Positions 39,536 to 48,145 of a stretch of DNA of 64,000 bases are shown piece by piece (positions within the stretch are counted from its first letter, which is position 1; each line of letters begins with the position of its first letter). The stretch comes from Dietzia timorensis. Its GTDB lineage: Bacteria; Actinomycetota; Actinomycetes; Mycobacteriales; Mycobacteriaceae. The stretch covers positions 3,472,001-3,536,000 of the forward strand of contig NZ_CP015961.1 in NCBI RefSeq assembly GCF_001659785.1. The letters are read 5' to 3'. A model generated the notes under the pieces. The model was not told the DNA's origin, ran no database searches, and saw only the letters and a list, made by a program, of their open reading frames with translations. A program made the translations under genes and the position numbers.

Positions 39536-39597
39536 CGTTAGTTTGAACCGGTCCAGGTTTGATGCCGCTGCTGTTTGAGTCCGGAAGGATGGACAGC

Positions 39598-39909
39598 ATG
39601 CCGAAGAGTATCGATCCCCAGCTGCGCGCGAGGTGTGTGCGGCTCGTCAGGGAGCACCAGCAGGAGTACCCCACTGTGACCGCTGCAGTCACTGCGGTGG
39701 CCCGGCAGGAAGGGGTCTCGCGCGAGTCGGTGAGACGCTGGCTGGCGCAGGCCGAGGTCGACGATGGGGCCCGGCCCGGTATCACCAGCGAGGAGTCTGC
39801 CGAGGTCAAACGCCTCAAGTCAGAGAACCGACGGTTGCGCGAGGATAACGAGATCTTGCGACGGGCCTCGATTTTCTTCGCGGGGGAGCCAGGCCCCCGA
39901 GGCCGCTGA
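39598..39909 (+). CDS. IS3-family transposase orfA
   Basis: A 103-residue DNA-binding protein of the IS3 element. It contains a helix-turn-helix (EGVSRESVRRWLAQAEVD) and a leucine-zipper-like C-terminal helix (EVKRLKSENRRLREDNEILRR). GGAAGG lies 9 bases before the ATG at 39598; an in-frame ATG at 39589 is possible. The end overlaps in the -1 frame with the upstream extension of orfB, which allows a fused OrfAB. Confidence 0.9.
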   Translation: MPKSIDPQLRARCVRLVREHQQEYPTVTAAVTAVARQEGVSRESVRRWLAQAEVDDGARPGITSEESAEVKRLKSENRRLREDNEILRRASIFFAGEPGPRGR

Positions 39910-39929: not shown

Positions 39930-40886
39930 ATGAGAGCCGAAGGTTTCGCAGTCGAGTCGATCCTCCGTGTCTTGCGCCAGCAAGGCCTGAGGATTGCTGC
40001 ACGCACCTACCGATCCTGGAAGCGGCCAGGCCACATTGCTGCCCGAACCGTCACAGACGCCCAGGTCGAGGACAAGATCCGCACCTTCGCCTGGAGGATC
40101 AACCCCGTCACCGGGCGGGTCCAGATGACACCGGAGGGCTTGTACGGGCGGCGGAAGTGGGTCGCCCTGCTCCGCCGCCAGGAAGGTCTGGCCGGCACGT
40201 CACGGGGCGCGGTGGACCGGGCGATGCGCACCCTCGGACTCGAGGGCGTGCGACGCGTCAAGAAGCTCCGCACGACGATCCCCGACCCGAATGGGAAACG
40301 GGCAGCTGACCTGCTCAATCGCGACTTCACTGCCCCTGCGCCGAACCGTGTGTGGGTCACCGACTTCACTTACGTGCGCACCTGGGCAGGATTCGTCTAT
40401 GTCGCGTTCGTCGTGGACGTGTTTGCCCAGCGGATCGTGGGCTGGCACGCCAGCACGTGCAAGAAGGTCGACCTGGTCATGACTCCGCTGAGGATCGCGC
40501 TCTGGCAACGAGATCGAGAGGGAAACCCTGTGTCACCTGGCGATTTGATCCATCACAGCGACGCAGGATCCCAGTACACCGCGATTCGACTGACCGAGCA
40601 CCTCGCCCTCGAAGGCATCTCCCCGTCAATCGGCACCGTCGGCGACGCCTACGATAACGCGCTCATGGAGACGATCAACGGTCTCTATAAGACCGAGTGT
40701 ATCCGCACCACCATATTCCACTCAGGGCCGTTCCGGACTCTCGCAGACGTCGAGTTCGCGACCGCCGGCTGGGTCGACTGGTACAACAACCGCCGCCTCC
40801 ACGGCTCGCTGGGGATGCTTACCCCGGTAGAGTCCGAGGCGCTCCACTACGAGGCCCTCACCCGAGAGCCCGCACCCACAAAGTAG
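39930..40886 (+). CDS. IS3-family transposase orfB (DDE integrase)
   Basis: A 318-residue integrase. The catalytic DDE residues are in VWVTDFTYVRTW, IHHSDAGSQYT and the glutamate in NALMETINGLYKTE. The reading frame is open upstream of the ATG as RPPRPLICAFIDEMRAEG, continuing from orfA by a -1 shift near the G-rich GCGGGGGAG at about 39878-39886, so the true product is probably the OrfAB fusion. It looks intact. Confidence 0.92.
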   Translation: MRAEGFAVESILRVLRQQGLRIAARTYRSWKRPGHIAARTVTDAQVEDKIRTFAWRINPVTGRVQMTPEGLYGRRKWVALLRRQEGLAGTSRGAVDRAMRTLGLEGVRRVKKLRTTIPDPNGKRAADLLNRDFTAPAPNRVWVTDFTYVRTWAGFVYVAFVVDVFAQRIVGWHASTCKKVDLVMTPLRIALWQRDREGNPVSPGDLIHHSDAGSQYTAIRLTEHLALEGISPSIGTVGDAYDNALMETINGLYKTECIRTTIFHSGPFRTLADVEFATAGWVDWYNNRRLHGSLGMLTPVESEALHYEALTREPAPTK

Positions 40887-41264: not shown

Positions 41265-41737
41265 TCATTCACTCCTCGGCGCCAAACTCAGTTCGGTTAA
41301 CGATTCCGTGGAAGTTTCCGTCCTAATTCTTGATCTACTTTGCGTTGCGCCCAGGGTGCTTTCTCGCGGTGTGCACAATCTCCCCTCATACGTATATCGC
41401 GCCATATAGGAAATCCGAGGCTGCAAAGCAGCATTCCAAATCGACAAGTTCGCAAGATTCCAATAGAAAATGCACGGCATGCGTAGGTCAATTTCAAAGA
41501 TGCCGACCAGGTCGGCACCCATGCGAACAGTCCGGGGGCGATGCTTCTCGAACGAGTGAACGACATCGGAAGCATTCTTGGCCTTTAGCAATGCTAGGAG
41601 CGGAGCGGCCAGGCTGGTGATTACGAGCTCGACGATACCCCGCTTGTTACCGAAGTCTTGGAAGAAGATGCCTTGGACCGCGCCCACTGTCAAATACTCT
41701 GGAATCCACTGCCGCGAGTTCTGGAAACTGCCAACTT
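41265..41737 (-). pseudogene. TetR-family regulator remnant
   Basis: The frame from about 41737 reads WIPEYLTVGAVQGIFFQDFGNKRGIVELVI, which aligns with the second half of a TetR DNA-binding domain (the 'GAvyghFgnK.gL' region), followed by a helical part. The first part of the HTH is absent and a stop lies just upstream. The C-terminus does not match a complete TetR protein, so this is a relic on the right edge of the island. Confidence 0.5.
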
Positions 41738-41766
41738 GAACTGGAATTCACATTGACAGCGGCAAG

Positions 41767-43608
41767 CTAGATTCCGCGGGCCATGTCCGTGAAGCGGGAG
41801 AAGTGAAGCTGGTGGGCGACCTTCACGGCGCCCGTCGGACCACCGCGGTGCTTGCCGAGAATGATCTCTGCCGAGCCGGCGTCCGGGTGGTCCTGCTCGA
41901 AGGCGTCCGGCCGGTGCAGAAGCATGACGATGTCGGCGTCCTGCTCTAGGGAGCCGGACTCACGAAGGTCGGACACCTGAGGCCGCTTGTCCGTACGCTG
42001 CTCTGGACCACGGTTGAGCTGCGAGATCGCGATCAGAGGCACGTCGATCTCCTTGGCTAGGAGCTTGAGCGAACGCGAGAATTCCGAGACCTCTTGCTGG
42101 CGGGACTCGACCTTTTTGCCCGAGCTCATCAGCTGGAGGTAGTCGACGACGATGAGGCGCAGGTCGTGCTGCTGTTTGAGGCGGCGGGCCTTGGCGCGGA
42201 TCTCCATCATGGTCATATTCGGCGAATCGTCGATGAACAGCGGGGCGGTCTCGATCTCGCCGAGCCGCTTGGCCATCTGCGCCCAGTCCTCGTCCGACAG
42301 CGTTCCGCCGCGCATGTTCGCAAGTTTGACCTTCGCCTCGGCGCTCATCAGTCGCATGACGATCTCGGTGCGGCTCATCTCAAGAGAGAAAACAACGGAG
42401 GCGAGTCCGTGTTTGATAGAGGCCGAGCGCATGATGTCGAGGCCGAGTGTCGAGTTGTGCGTGGGGATCGCCGTCTCGCCTGCCAGATACATGTGGTCCG
42501 GCGCCTCGACCTCGATGCAGCGAACCGGCACAGACTCGGTGTTGCGGACATCGATGATGAAGCGGGAGGGAACGCCGCGGGCGGGATCCTCCGGGATCTC
42601 GACCCCGGACTCGGCGACGAGGAGCATCGTTTCAAGTGCCTTTGTCGTCATCGTCTGGCGGGTGCCACCGAAGATGACCTCCCACTCGTGCTCCGCGTCG
42701 GCGACGATCGATGCGCCGTCGGAGAAGATGAGACGGAAGCACGGCCGGTCGTCCCAGATCTCCGAGAGCCCCGTGACCTTGGTTGGGCGGCCATCGGAGG
42801 CGAGCACCTCGTCGCCGACCTGGAGCTCGCCTTGGGTGGTGAAGGTGGGAGCGGCGCCGTCAAGAAGCGGTGCCGTGGGGATGGGCGTATCGAGGGCAAG
42901 GGCTTTGCCGACACCGGGACGGGCGGCGATGATGACCATCTGTCCGCCGCGCAGGCCGTTGGTGAGCGAATCGAGATCGACGAAACCGGTGGGAACGCCC
43001 GCCGAAAGACCGCCGGCCTCCTGGATTTCGTCCATCTCGTCCATCGTCGGCTGGAGGAGCTCGGACAGCGCGACGTAGTCCTCGGACGTGCGGCGCTCGG
43101 TGACCTCGAAGATCTCCGCCTGCGCGCGGTCGACGACCTCGTCGACCTCCTGCCCGTCCCCCGAGTAGCCGTACTGCACGATGCGCGTGCCCGCGTCGAC
43201 GAGGCGCCGCAGCACCGCCTTCTCCGAGACGATGCGCGCGTAGAAGCCGGCATTCGCCGCGGTGGGGACCGTGGATACGAGAGTGTGTAGGTAAGGGGCG
43301 CCGCCGGCGCGTTTGAGCTCGCCCTTGCGGTCGAGCTCCGCGGATACCGTGACCGGGTCCGCAGGTTCTCCACGGGCGTAGAGGTCGAGGATGATGTCGT
43401 AGACGACTTGGTGCGCGGGCTTGTAGAAGTCGCCCGGGCCGAGCGCCTCGACGACATCCGCGATGGCGTCCTTCGACATGAGCATGCCGCCGAGGACGGA
43501 CTGCTCGGCGACGAGATCCTGCGGCGGCACGCGGCCGTACTGCTCGCCGCCACCCTCTGCGGGCTCGGACGAGAGGCCGGTCTCGAACCGCTCGAAATCT
43601 GCAGGCAT
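41767..43608 (-). CDS. dnaB: Replicative DNA helicase DnaB, with intein
   Basis: A 613-residue precursor of the replication helicase. Residues 28-130 are the N-terminal DnaB domain, and the RecA-like helicase core begins near residue 200. The P-loop GVGK (232-235) is split from the following STLGL (386-390) by an intein of 150 residues (236-385). After splicing the helicase is about 463 residues and has the DnaB motifs LRLIVVDYLQLM, SQLNRGPEQR and GKHRGGPTG. The gene lies apart from rplI by 760 bases instead of the usual tight order. Confidence 0.95.
   Translation of the reverse strand: MPADFERFETGLSSEPAEGGGEQYGRVPPQDLVAEQSVLGGMLMSKDAIADVVEALGPGDFYKPAHQVVYDIILDLYARGEPADPVTVSAELDRKGELKRAGGAPYLHTLVSTVPTAANAGFYARIVSEKAVLRRLVDAGTRIVQYGYSGDGQEVDEVVDRAQAEIFEVTERRTSEDYVALSELLQPTMDEMDEIQEAGGLSAGVPTGFVDLDSLTNGLRGGQMVIIAARPGVGKALALDTPIPTAPLLDGAAPTFTTQGELQVGDEVLASDGRPTKVTGLSEIWDDRPCFRLIFSDGASIVADAEHEWEVIFGGTRQTMTTKALETMLLVAESGVEIPEDPARGVPSRFIIDVRNTESVPVRCIEVEAPDHMYLAGETAIPTHNSTLGLDIMRSASIKHGLASVVFSLEMSRTEIVMRLMSAEAKVKLANMRGGTLSDEDWAQMAKRLGEIETAPLFIDDSPNMTMMEIRAKARRLKQQHDLRLIVVDYLQLMSSGKKVESRQQEVSEFSRSLKLLAKEIDVPLIAISQLNRGPEQRTDKRPQVSDLRESGSLEQDADIVMLLHRPDAFEQDHPDAGSAEIILGKHRGGPTGAVKVAHQLHFSRFTDMARGI
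42454..42903 (-). other. Class 3-type mini-intein in the DnaB P-loop
   Basis: The intein comprises residues 236-385 of the precursor. It starts with Ala (ALALDTPIP) rather than Cys or Ser and ends in PTHN before Ser386. Trp309 in EHEW, Cys364 in VRCIEVEAPD and Thr383 in PTHN form the W-C-T set that marks class 3 inteins, in which the internal Cys starts splicing. No homing endonuclease fits in 150 residues. Insertion between the P-loop lysine and serine is a known DnaB intein site. Confidence 0.9.
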
Positions 43609-43729
43609 TACCGCTTCTCCGTCCGTCGCATTACGCGTTCAAGTCTAGGCGATCCGTTGGCGTCACCGGCGTCTGGATACCACGGCTGTGGAGGCGGATA
43701 CAACCCATCGACATCACGAGAGCCGAGAG

Positions 43730-44007
43730 TTATCCACAGGGATTTCCACAATCGCGAGTAACCAGCTGTGGATAGATGTGGACAAACTCACCGTTTCCTC
43801 GGCATTTACGGGTGCGCTTGTGGACAAACCGTGGATAAAGCGAAATATTGCCGCTAAAACCGCTGGTCAGAATGTTTTCGCAGGTCAGAGCTAATGTGCA
43901 TAATTTTATTTGGACTTCGGAAATCTAGCTTGCATTTCCCTGGATTTTACCGTCGAACACGTGGTATGTGATGTAGGCAACACGATGTGAACACCACGTT
44001 ATCCACA
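43730..44007. promoter_or_regulatory. Cluster of six DnaA boxes with AT-rich stretch
   Basis: TTATCCACA occurs exactly at 43730-43738 and 43999-44007. Near matches on the minus strand are TGTGGATAG at 43767-43775, TGTGGACAA at 43777-43785 and 43819-43827, and CGTGGATAA at 43830-43838. Between them, 43840-43960 is AT-rich for this genome (TAATTTTATTTGG and similar). This is the layout of an origin-like or DnaA-binding control site, located between dnaB and rplI. Confidence 0.75.
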
Positions 44008-44210
44008 GGTCCTGTGCACACCCGCGTGCCCTGGGGATACACCGATCCGGCGAGCGCGAACACGTTGCAGCACAAGCGAAATACCGCCGCCCACACCGGA
44101 AGGTGGTCGACGGAAATTGGCCGCCGCATAGCGTACGGCGAGATGTAGAAGTTGGGCCGGGGGCGAGACCTGATCCGGGCTCGGGACGCGCCGGGCGTCG
44201 ATGCGATTGG

Positions 44211-44237
44211 GACGTCCGACGTCATACGTGAATGGGG
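44211..44237 (-). repeat. Dispersed motif copy: TATGACGTCGG
   Basis: On the minus strand this reads CCCCATTCACGTATGACGTC followed by GGACGTC. It lies 80 bases downstream-side of the DnaA-box cluster and 75 bases before the rplI terminator. The stretch from 44008 to 44310 otherwise shows no gene. Confidence 0.5.
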
Positions 44238-44315
44238 TTGTGCGTGTGCGCACGGGTGCCGCTGTGCACGATGGTGCGACGCGGGTCGTGACACGGCGGA
44301 AAGGGGCACAAAAGT

Positions 44316-44355
44316 GCCGCGCCCGCTCCCCACCTAAGCGGGAAGCGGGCGCGGC
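44316..44355 (-). terminator. Terminator of the rpsF-ssb-rplI operon
   Basis: GCCGCGCCCGCT at 44316-44327 and AGCGGGCGCGGC at 44344-44355 form a perfect 12-base stem 16 bases past the rplI stop. On the minus strand it is followed by a modest A/T-containing tail. Confidence 0.85.
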
Positions 44356-44370
44356 TACTGCGCGAGTGGA

Positions 44371-44823
44371 TTACTCGGCGACGACCTCGACGTTGACGGT
44401 CGCGGAGACCTCGTGTCCGAGATCGACGACAGCCTTGTGGTTGCCGGCGTTCTTGATGTGCTCCTTGGGCAGCGTGATGCTGCGCTTGGCGAGCTTCGGG
44501 CCGCCCGAGGTCTTGATGGCCTCGGCGACATCCGCGGTGGTGACAGAGCCGAAGAGCTTGCCCGAATCGGAGGTGCGCACGGCGACCTTCACGTTCGCCA
44601 GGCCCTCGAGCTGCTGCTTGAGCTCGTTCGCGTGCTCGGCGTCGCGCACCTCGCGCTCGGCCTGGACACGACGAATCGTCTCGATCTGGCGCTCCGCGCC
44701 CGGGGAGGCCAGGATGGCCAGCCCACGCGGGAGCAGGAAGTTACGTCCGTAACCGCCCTTGACCTCGACGATGTCGCCCGGCGCACCGAGGTTGTCGACG
44801 TCGGCGGTGAGGATCAGCTTCAT
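44371..44823 (-). CDS. rplI: 50S ribosomal protein L9
   Basis: A 150-residue ribosomal protein of normal length: the N-terminal RNA-binding domain begins [20 protein letters not shown] with the typical [13 protein letters not shown], followed by the long connecting helix and the C-terminal domain from about residue 80. The ATG at 44823 follows AAGG. It is the last gene of the rpsF-ssb-rplI run and has a strong terminator. rpsR, which precedes it in mycobacteria, is absent. Confidence 0.96.
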
Positions 44824-44943
44824 GATCCTTAACCTTTCTCGCCCCGCCGCCGCTGCTATGCGCGGCACGCGAGGTCAGTACTCAAAGTTGATCGTGCTTG
44901 GGGTGTAAGTGCTTCCGGACCGCTAGGTCCGAATCGTGGGCGA

Positions 44944-45507
44944 TCAGAACGGGGGCTCGTCGTCCGCACCGCCGAAGCCGCCGCCCGCCTGCGGGGCGCT
45001 GCCCCACGGGTCGTCGCCTGCCGGAGGACGTCCGCCACCTTGCTGACCGCCGCCGTAGCCGCCCTGATTGTCGCCATAGCCGCCGCGGGGCGCTCCGCCC
45101 TGCTGGCCGCCGCCCTGGCCTCCTCCGAAGCCGCCGCCCTCGCGCGGAGTGCGCGCGACCTTCGCGGTGGCGTAGCGGAGCGAGGGGCCGACCTCGTCGA
45201 CCTCGAGCTCGTACACGGTGCGCTTCTCGCCCTCACGGGTTTCGAAGGACCGCTGCTTGAGGCGACCCTGCACCACGACACGCATGCCGCGCTGCAGCGA
45301 CTCGGCGACGTTCTCCGCCGCCTGGCGCCAGATATTGCACGTAAGGAAGAGGGCTTCGCCGTCCTCCCACTGGCTCGTCTGCGAGTTGAAACGCCGCGGC
45401 GTCGAGGCGATACGGAAGTTCGCAACGGCCGCGCCGGACGGGGTGAACCGCAGTTCCGGGTCTGCAACCAGGTTACCAACAACGGTGATGACGGTATCGC
45501 CTGCCAT
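44944..45507 (-). CDS. ssb: Single-stranded DNA-binding protein
   Basis: A 187-residue SSB. Residues 1-115 are the OB fold ([41 protein letters not shown]). A glycine- and glutamine-rich linker follows with GGGQQGG runs, and the end is the conserved acidic tip DDEPPF that contacts partner proteins. It lies between rpsF and rplI in the usual replication/ribosome operon. Confidence 0.96.
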
Positions 45508-45586
45508 ATAACTCGCTCCTCGAGGTTTAGCGGAAAGACTCTCCGCGCCCAGATTACGTGCGAAAACGCTCAGGGACTAGGGGGAA

Positions 45587-45874
45587 CTACGCGTCGGTGC
45601 GCAGAACCTTCGTGCGCAGGATGGACTCGTTGAGTCCGAGCTGGCGGTCCAGTTCCTTGACCGTGTCGGGCTCGGCCTTGAGCTCGATAACGGCGTAGAT
45701 GCCTTCGGTCTGCTTGTTGATCTCGTAGGCAAGACGGCGCTTACCCCACACATCGACCTTGTCGACCGAGCCGCCATCCTTGCGAATTACGTTCAGGAAC
45801 GTATCCAGGGACGGGGCTACGGTGCGCTCGTCGAGACTCGAATCGAGAATGATCATCACTTCGTATTGACGCAC
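45587..45874 (-). CDS. rpsF: 30S ribosomal protein S6
   Basis: A 95-residue ribosomal protein of normal length, beginning [18 protein letters not shown] and with the conserved [10 protein letters not shown] and [10 protein letters not shown]. The start is a GTG at 45874, with GGAGG 14 bases and GAGG about 5 bases upstream. It leads the rpsF-ssb-rplI operon. S18, its partner in the ribosome, is not encoded here. Confidence 0.95.
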
Positions 45875-46259
45875 GGGACCTCATCACCTCCTATGGTCTA
45901 TGAGTTTCGGCCGCCGCCCGATTGGCAACGGCAGGAGGGTCGTCGCGTCAGCAACCTTGACAGTTTAGCTTGCTGCCGCTGGGCGCGCCTAATTTGCGCA
46001 GGCAGGTGGCTGTGCCAGGGACTGGTGGGCGCCGGCGGGGCGTGACGGCGTCGGTTCTGGCGGAAATCCGTGCGGGCGCGTGCCGCGCCGGCCGGCTTGT
46101 CCCGCTGTCCCGGCCCCGACGCGGCCGCTCTTGGGCCCCGCGCCGACAAACCGCAGCGCCAGTCCTCAAACCGCGTTGTCTTGACAACGGTGAAAGGTGA
46201 CCCGGCGTGCGTTCTGGCAAAGGGGAAGGGAAAGGGCGGACGAGGTGCCGGCGGGTCCG
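45875..46259 (-). other. rpsF upstream region
   Basis: A 385-base gap with no supportable gene. It must carry the operon promoter. GC-rich palindromes near 46080-46110 could fold, but I cannot match a known leader class. Confidence 0.5.
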
Positions 46260-46472
46260 CTAACCGCCGAGGAGCTCGGAGCGTCCGTCGCTCAGTCCCA
46301 TCGTCAGCGCCGCGATGATCGGCAACACCGTGAGGAACACGATCGCCGCGACGATCCACCCGATCCACGTCTTCTTGTGCCAGCCCATGCGGTAGCCGCC
46401 GGCGGCGACAAGGATGCACACGAAACCGAGGAAGATCCCCAGCCACATCAGCAACATCTCGAGGGTGCTCAT
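46260..46472 (-). CDS. Small membrane protein
   Basis: A 70-residue protein with two membrane segments (about residues 7-27 and 38-60) and a short basic loop between (GWHKKTW). No function known. Its ATG at 46472 overlaps the TGA of the glycosyltransferase gene by four bases, so the two are coupled and it may assist that enzyme. Confidence 0.72.
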   Translation of the reverse strand: MSTLEMLLMWLGIFLGFVCILVAAGGYRMGWHKKTWIGWIVAAIVFLTVLPIIAALTMGLSDGRSELLGG

Positions 46473-48145
46473 CGTGAATCGGACTCCTTGTCATCGGACG
46501 TGTCGGTCGGTTCGGCGGCGGAAGCCGCGGGGGCGGAGGCACCGGCCGCCGCTCGTACGCGCTGCGGCAAGCGCGGCCGTCCGGCGCGGGGAGCAGCTCC
46601 GACGTCAGAGGCGAGGTCGAAGGACGCACGCACCGAGGCCGGCGCATCGGGCTCCGGGGCCAGCGTGCCGAGGAGCGGATCCGCGCCGGGCAGATCGGCG
46701 TGCCAGCGGCGCACCCGGTCCCGCGCGGGCCGGTAGATCTCGAAGATGATCGCCGCGCACACGGCCACGACCAGCAGGTTCCGGATGATCACGAGCATGC
46801 CAAACCACTCGGGGTTGAGGCCCTTGGCGTCGGTGCCCGCGAAGTACGACATGTGCGCGATCCACAGGAGGGCGTCGAAGATCATCCACGGCAGCAGGAT
46901 GCGCGCCCGCGGGATCGCGAGCACCGCCAGCGGCACGAGCCACAGCGAATACTGCGGGCTCCACACCTTGTTGGTGAGCAGGAAGAACGCGACGATGAGG
47001 AACGCGAGCTGCGCGATACGCGGTGACTTCGGCGCGGTGAGGCCGATCGCGAGGACAGCCACACAGCCGAGCGCGAACAGGACGAGCGAGACCGTGTTGA
47101 GGGTCTCGGGGACCGCGCCGGCGGGGTCGAAGCCGTCCCACGACGTCAACGATTGGATGACGGCGTACATCGATTCCGGGTTGGCCGGGCGGTCGGAATT
47201 GAGACGGAAGAACTCGCGCCAGCCCGCGGGGAACAGCAGCGCGATGGGCAGGTTGATCGCCGACCACGTGATCGCCGCGACGCACGCCGCCCACGCGATG
47301 TCGACGAACTTGCGCGCGCGGATCGCGACGACGAGCAGCGCGCCGAACAGGAACAGCGGGTAGAGCTTCATCGCGACACCGACGCCGATCGCGAAGCCGG
47401 CCCAGCGCGGCATCTTCTTCGCCCACAACAGCAGCGCCACCGAGGCCGCGGCGACGGCCATAGCGTCGAAGTTGGTGAAGACCTGGAAGACCACCAGTGG
47501 GCTCGCCGCCATGAACAGCGTGTCCCAGGGTCTGCGCCCGGCGCTGTAATACGTGGCCCACACGGCGACGAGCCAGAAGATCGTCATCGTCACCACGAGG
47601 ATGAGGAAGTATTTGATCACGTCGATCGGCCCCGGCAGAATGCCCGAGCGGTCGAGGTGATCCCATGCGAGTGCGACCTGCGCGCTGCCGTACTGCCACA
47701 ACCCGGAGATCACCGGATACTCCATGTAGCGCACCTGCTCGGCGCCCGGGTCGCCCTCGGTCCACGAGAACTTGTACGGGAACGCCCCCTGAGACAGGCC
47801 CTCGATTCCCCACAGCGGGATCGGGTCCGCGTAGCACGCCTTGTAATACTGGCGGCCGTCCCACATCAGCCCCGGGGCACTGCCGTCCTCGGGGTGGGAG
47901 GTCTCCAGGCACGCCGCCTTGGAGAAGAACCCAAAGGCACAGAGGATAACGGCGAACAGCAGGATCACCCGTAGCGGAGTGATCCGCGGCTGCCGCCCGA
48001 CCACCGCGTGCCTACCCAACGGGCCTCCCCATGCCTGCGCGGCGGGGAGAAACGCGCCGTCGCCTGGACGGGCGCGATCGTCCGGGCCGAGCTCCGCGAG
48101 GTCATCTGCGAGCGGGCGCGGGGAGGAAGAGTCTCCGTTGGTCAC
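46469..48145 (-). CDS. Glycosyltransferase 87 family membrane protein (Rv0051-like)
   Basis: A 558-residue polytopic membrane protein with about ten to eleven segments, of the GT87/DUF2029 family of polyprenyl-phosphate-dependent mannosyl- or arabinosyltransferases. An acidic motif is in the first outside loop (LMWDGRQYYKACYADP). The homologous gene in mycobacteria, Rv0051, also sits by ponA and rpsF. It probably adds a sugar to a wall glycan or protein outside the membrane. The start is a GTG at 48145, 24 bases past the ponA stop at 48170. Confidence 0.85.
   Translation of the reverse strand: MTNGDSSSPRPLADDLAELGPDDRARPGDGAFLPAAQAWGGPLGRHAVVGRQPRITPLRVILLFAVILCAFGFFSKAACLETSHPEDGSAPGLMWDGRQYYKACYADPIPLWGIEGLSQGAFPYKFSWTEGDPGAEQVRYMEYPVISGLWQYGSAQVALAWDHLDRSGILPGPIDVIKYFLILVVTMTIFWLVAVWATYYSAGRRPWDTLFMAASPLVVFQVFTNFDAMAVAAASVALLLWAKKMPRWAGFAIGVGVAMKLYPLFLFGALLVVAIRARKFVDIAWAACVAAITWSAINLPIALLFPAGWREFFRLNSDRPANPESMYAVIQSLTSWDGFDPAGAVPETLNTVSLVLFALGCVAVLAIGLTAPKSPRIAQLAFLIVAFFLLTNKVWSPQYSLWLVPLAVLAIPRARILLPWMIFDALLWIAHMSYFAGTDAKGLNPEWFGMLVIIRNLLVVAVCAAIIFEIYRPARDRVRRWHADLPGADPLLGTLAPEPDAPASVRASFDLASDVGAAPRAGRPRLPQRVRAAAGASAPAASAAEPTDTSDDKESDSR

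Follow-up and report, generated by a model that had tools for sequence, protein, structure and literature searches.

The question raised by this locus is what a dense group of DnaA boxes does in front of dnaB, the gene of the replicative helicase. Three readings had been offered in an earlier note made from the letters of this DNA: a second replication start, a site that titrates DnaA, and a DnaA-controlled promoter of dnaB. The stretch analysed (the window) comprises 64,000 nucleotides of Dietzia timorensis and corresponds to C1:3472001-3536000, where C1 is the single contig of the genome (3,607,892 bp). The box cluster lies directly upstream of dnaB, in the gap between this gene and rplI. 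Positions given without a contig name are those of the window, and the features of the gap and its two flanking genes are as follows.

41767..43608, minus strand: dnaB, replicative helicase, 613 aa (Pfam DnaB N and C domains; NCBIfam TIGR00665)
43730..43738, plus strand: proximal perfect DnaA box, TTATCCACA, which is TGTGGATAA when read toward dnaB; perfect and in the same orientation in 22/22 same-genus loci
43742..43750, plus strand: weak box ATTTCCACA, two mismatches, spaced 12 bp from the proximal box; most congeners have no more than one mismatch here
43767..43785, minus strand: box pair CTATCCACA / TTGTCCACA, 10 bp start to start; the 10-bp pair is aligned in congeners
43819..43838, minus strand: box pair TTGTCCACA / TTATCCACG, 11 bp start to start; an aligned pair in congeners, one member weak
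43842..43961, no strand: AT-rich stretch, 42.5% G+C; in congeners, the equivalent part has a lower A+T content
43895..43903, minus strand: box TTATGCACA, one mismatch, within the AT-rich stretch
43999..44007, plus strand: distal perfect DnaA box, TTATCCACA, 269 bp from the proximal box
44316..44355, minus strand: terminator-like hairpin after rplI (seen in a consensus scan only; chance expectation for the scanned region, 0.7)
44371..44823, minus strand: rplI, ribosomal protein L9, the upstream neighbour (Pfam)

Seven DnaA boxes with at most one mismatch were found in 278 bp of the rplI-dnaB gap (43730-44007). Two of them are perfect, as the earlier note had stated; five, and not four, carry one mismatch (minus strand, starts at 43767, 43777, 43819, 43830 and 43895), which brings the total to seven instead of six. 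The AT-rich stretch of about 120 bases described beside the boxes was recovered at 43842-43961, with 42.5% G+C as compared with 58.5% for the rplI-dnaB gap and 64.5% for the window.

The number of boxes upstream of dnaB exceeds chance. When no more than one mismatch is allowed, the whole window contains 11 boxes, seven of which belong to the cluster, whereas windows shuffled with preservation of dinucleotides (n=100) held 3.16 boxes on average and eight at most. When the 3.61 Mb of the genome were searched for two of the box forms, 14 copies of TTATCCACA and 10 of TTGTCCACA were counted, and 4 of these 24 sit in the 278 bp of the cluster; the Poisson probability of such a coincidence is 5e-13 per window, and about 6e-9 after correction for the number of windows.

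The genes dnaA and dnaN were located outside the window, in agreement with the earlier note, at C1:11-1510 and C1:2341-3522, and an L34-like frame (rpmH, recognized by eye) stands at the other end of the contig. Since dnaA occupies one contig end, the cluster is some 92 kb away from it across the contig junction. In the 400 kb centred on dnaA, 40 boxes (at most one mismatch) were obtained against 35 matches to a reversed control pattern; boxes as such are therefore not enriched. Their grouping is different: two seven-box clusters and three pairs were seen among the boxes, but the 35 control matches are all single, with none within 150 bp of another. A similar box density elsewhere, which the earlier note had named as evidence against its own proposal, is not what these 400 kb show: one other cluster is comparable, and it corresponds to a DnaA site that is already known.

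In order to follow the cluster in relatives, the same gap was compared across the genus. Of 23 genus genomes, 22 yielded a dnaB gene, the present one included, the exception being the least complete genome. Each of the 21 other congeners carries four to six boxes in its rplI-dnaB gap (21/21), and together the 22 loci (11.2 kb) hold 118 boxes against a single match to the reversed pattern. The two outer boxes both read TGTGGATA toward dnaB, and the distance between them is 270 bp in 19 of the 22 loci, 269 bp in two (that of the window being one) and 281 bp in one; because genomes of one genus are related, these counts are not independent events. In the 19 loci with the 270-bp spacing, the columns outside the boxes have a mean identity of 63% (lowest value 50%) with zero net change in length. 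The flanks of the array vary within the genus, with 56-106 bp from a TACAGT motif to the ATG of dnaB and 68-366 bp between the distal box and the point where the rplI match ends. Only 3 to 8 copies of TTATCCACA exist in the whole genome of each of five well-assembled congeners, and in every case two of these copies are upstream of dnaB.

Beyond the genus, boxes preceding dnaB reach through the family and, thinly, the class. A set of 76 named loci (80 fetched) gave 201 boxes versus 8 control matches, with at least two boxes in 50/76. Among 40 genomes from 30 other genera of the family, 102 boxes were counted versus 3 control matches; at least one box was present in 35 genomes and at least two in 29, and the scanned stretch of 5/40 contained no box. 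For the class (40 genomes from 34 other families), the figures were 60 versus 5, with at least one box in 29/40 and no box in the scanned stretch of 11/40. Where rplI was not found in the fetched sequence (7/40 family and 16/40 class loci), the scan took in at most 1 kb ahead of dnaB, and the named and family sets share at least three genomes. Within the fetched sequence, rplI lies upstream of dnaB in 98/102 loci and in 33/40 further family loci.

The gap and its surroundings show several other features. If the hairpin at 44316..44355 is a terminator, it would separate dnaB from the upstream genes. These comprise rpsF, ssb and rplI, which follow one another in 44371-45874 with no space for rpsR between ssb and rplI; in many actinobacteria, rpsR sits between these two genes. 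Judged by eye, the dnaB frame itself (41767-43608) is interrupted at the P-loop by some 150 aa that resemble an intein, starting with Ala and ending with HN-S. In relatives, the dnaB frames measured from stop to stop are mostly about 450 to 1550 aa long, and insertions may therefore be common. About 0.9 kb from the 3' end of dnaB, two adjacent plus-strand frames (39559-39909 and 39930-40886) have, by eye, the look of an IS3-type transposase pair.

A 128-aa ORF overlapping the distal part of the array (43950-44333, minus strand) had no Pfam match, and a search of 41500-46500 for RNA families returned two matches, both far below the gathering score. A protein-coding cause of the conservation was also considered. 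The rplI-dnaB gap has 15 frames of 40 aa or more, and these were set against the 21 congeners; among the matches listed, E values went down to 4e-8, with mostly 32-42% identity, for a frame that crosses the boxes. As the protein identity is below the DNA identity, such matches were read as an echo of the conserved boxes and not as a gene, and this cause was rejected. The genus alignment of the gap also displays conserved blocks that are not boxes, TGACC.GC, GTTCATCTTTCGTTA and CGGGCGTGTCG, which could possibly be sites of another regulator.

A fixed distance between a box and a promoter-like element was seen in relatives. In 21/21 congeners, the -10-like motif TACAGT occurs 38-39 bp past the proximal box, which is the last box before dnaB. 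The Nocardia loci present a comparable arrangement, in which TTATCCACA precedes a TTGGNN-17/18-TAGNNT element in 18 of 20 loci (two loci are from the same species), the other 2/20 lacking the element. Between the box and the first hexamer there are exactly 19 bp in 17/20 loci and 24 bp in one, and the distance from the second hexamer to the ATG varies from 84 to 186 bp. Both motifs were picked after the alignments had been viewed. Furthermore, the proximal box of the Dietzia loci is inverted relative to that of Nocardia, so that one contact geometry need not be common to both.

TACAGT is absent from the window's own sequence. A sigma-70 scan of 43500-44400 yielded three weak matches, 0.4 being expected, and no match between the proximal box and dnaB. 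For this reason, the promoter geometry was taken from the relatives. The sole promoter-like match on the dnaB strand, at 43972-43944 (9/12 positions matching), is upstream of most boxes; if it were the dnaB promoter, DnaA bound downstream of it would more likely repress or block transcription.

Taken with what is known from mycobacteria, these arrangements lead us to regard the cluster as a likely DnaA-responsive regulatory region of dnaB. For Mycobacterium tuberculosis DNA in vitro, high DnaA enrichment was reported at five regions (oriC, Rv0010c-Rv0011c, Rv0057 upstream of dnaB, Rv3843c-RVnc0040 and rpmH-dnaA), whose homologues were all recovered by ChIP-seq in M. smegmatis (Hicks et al. 2020, PMC7738170). 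According to the same source, the DnaA variant I282T binds less at the dnaB promoter and uniquely under-expresses dnaB. DnaA binding at this place is already known in mycobacteria (PMC7738170), and the cluster of the window is the positional counterpart of that site. Among the three readings of the earlier note, a dnaB promoter under DnaA control has the strongest support, through the fixed spacing in relatives and through mycobacterial DnaA binding with the linked under-expression of dnaB; the second origin found no support, and titration proved compatible with the data. The expression of dnaB would probably be activated by DnaA, the cluster perhaps acting as a DnaA sink as well. The preference for activation over repression is an analogy drawn from one published mutant of another genus.

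As a mechanism, DnaA would fill the paired boxes cooperatively (spacings of 10 and 11 bp, and of 12 bp with the weak partner), and the assembly would end just upstream of RNA polymerase, a position which we take to be a class-I-like activator placement. DnaA present there would raise dnaB transcription, an effect that we infer for Dietzia timorensis in the same way as the promoter position, and the supply of helicase would in consequence follow active DnaA. Because the cluster is about 92 kb from oriC, the replication fork should pass it early, and the boxes doubled after this passage would soak up DnaA; some titration would therefore be a likely by-product. Such a sink is likely to be a side effect or a second function, and it also constitutes the main rival.

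This rival supposes a titration or DnaA-inactivating site, similar to datA or to other DnaA-box clusters, whose effect on dnaB is secondary: the paired boxes would collect DnaA once the origin-proximal DNA has been copied, and re-initiation would thereby be delayed. The cluster does have the composition and the location expected of such a site, with seven boxes outside oriC at about 92 kb from dnaA. Four to seven near-consensus boxes are found here (22 loci) versus one or two in the dnaA-dnaN gap (19/23 loci measurable), bearing in mind that a match to the consensus is not equivalent to affinity. When the coordinates of dnaB and dnaN are compared, the distance is about 92 kb in the present genome, 135 kb in genome G020 and 165 kb in genome G017, which is origin-proximal in each case. 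There are also precedents, since box clusters close to oriC repress untimely initiation in Bacillus subtilis and Streptomyces coelicolor, according to reviews (PMC5742627, PMC4585315), and boxes accumulate near oriC in Escherichia coli, according to a 2025 paper. However, titration requires neither a fixed distance to a promoter nor attachment to dnaB, and both are conserved in relatives. As the primary role of the cluster, it is consequently considered rather unlikely.

It is far less probable that the cluster is a second replication origin or a part of oriC, at which DnaA would open the AT-rich stretch and load DnaB. The G+C content of this stretch (42.5%) is low compared with the whole rpmH-dnaA and dnaA-dnaN gaps (51% and 55%, respectively), and the lowest 100-bp G+C value in the gap is 0.40 here and 0.44-0.56 in congeners (absolute values), where a weaker unwinding element is possible. 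On the other hand, the 150 bp past the distal box have 45% G+C in the window and 50-66% in the 21 congeners. The contig junction has the features of a standard oriC neighbourhood, with dnaA, dnaN, the L34-like frame and boxes on both sides of dnaA (two with at most one mismatch in the dnaA-dnaN gap and two on the rpmH-dnaA side). The cumulative GC skew, a check proposed in the earlier note, was calculated over 400 kb and has its minimum (-2088) at dnaA; the switch point does not coincide with the cluster. A local skew minimum (-1364), one of several, lies about 105 kb to the left of dnaA and about 13 kb from the cluster, and could be quoted in favour of an origin. The second start remains unsupported, as dnaA and dnaN are about 92 kb away, at the cumulative minimum.

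Finally, chance clustering within AT-richer intergenic DNA, to which the lower G+C content of the gap (58.5%) relative to the whole window would lend itself, is contradicted by the dinucleotide-preserving shuffles, the reversed control pattern and the conservation of box counts across genomes, and was rejected as barely conceivable.

The regulatory reading of the dnaB cluster can be placed beside the other DnaA sites of this chromosome. The second seven-box cluster in the 400 kb (C1:42150-42514, four boxes perfect) has crgA (Pfam CrgA) on one side and, on the other, an ORF whose PH-domain match falls slightly short of the cut-off. At this site, 21 genus loci, the present one included, contain 116 boxes against 0 control matches, and by position the cluster corresponds to the DnaA site Rv0010c-Rv0011c of mycobacteria. 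At C1:581088-581112, an inverted TTGTCCACA/TTATCCACA pair (16 bp start to start) precedes a septum-site gene resembling Ssd/CpaE (TIGR03815 match of 106 bits, below the cut-off of 154). The corresponding region of 16 genus loci, including this one, has 14 boxes versus 3 control matches, and six loci are without a box; a link between DnaA and division is possible at this pair.

As a speculative proposal, considered rather unlikely, the dnaB and crgA/Rv0010c sites flanking oriC could form an actinobacterial pair of platforms for DnaA assembly that exceed oriC itself in near-consensus boxes, of which the dnaB one would be a rigid 270-bp nucleoprotein structure setting the helicase supply and resetting or sequestering DnaA. 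If this were true, one element would do work that is split in E. coli between datA/DARS and promoter control. To our knowledge, the timing of replication initiation is less well understood in actinobacteria than in E. coli. A DnaA array that precedes the helicase gene and is kept nearly to the base pair through a genus, together with boxes before dnaB in other families of the class, suggests that the coupling of initiator to helicase is old and under selection there. The locus also offers a compact region, in bacteria that are not pathogens, where experiment could separate titration from transcription.

With respect to known systems, no earlier description of the array outside mycobacteria appeared among the literature matches listed (including Corynebacterium, best 10 of 31), and Hicks et al. 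2020 was the one paper found to treat DnaA, Rv0010c and dnaB together; most subscription papers were outside the scope of these searches. The closest system is the mycobacterial Rv0057/dnaB site, which has the same position upstream of dnaB and also contains DnaA boxes (PMC7738170). Dietzia in addition has counterparts, by position, of the Rv0010c-Rv0011c (crgA), rpmH-dnaA and dnaA-dnaN gap sites (PMC7738170). The predicted boxes of Dietzia are closer to TTATCCACA and more numerous, whereas Mycobacterium and Mycolicibacterium loci mostly have one to three one-mismatch boxes. In E. coli, datA acts with IHF, and DARS2 with IHF and Fis; datA, DARS1 and DARS2 are non-origin box clusters acting on DnaA, and the Dietzia cluster likewise lies outside the origin. 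The oriC-proximal clusters of S. coelicolor and B. subtilis, which are reported to limit initiation (Smulczyk-Krawczyszyn 2006; Okumura 2012; cited in PMC5742627 and PMC4585315), are, like that of Dietzia, outside oriC yet near it. Lastly, dnaB of Caulobacter crescentus belongs to the DnaA regulon and has predicted DnaA boxes upstream (Hottes et al. 2005, cited in PMC8203912), so that boxes in front of dnaB are shared by Dietzia and a member of an unrelated phylum.
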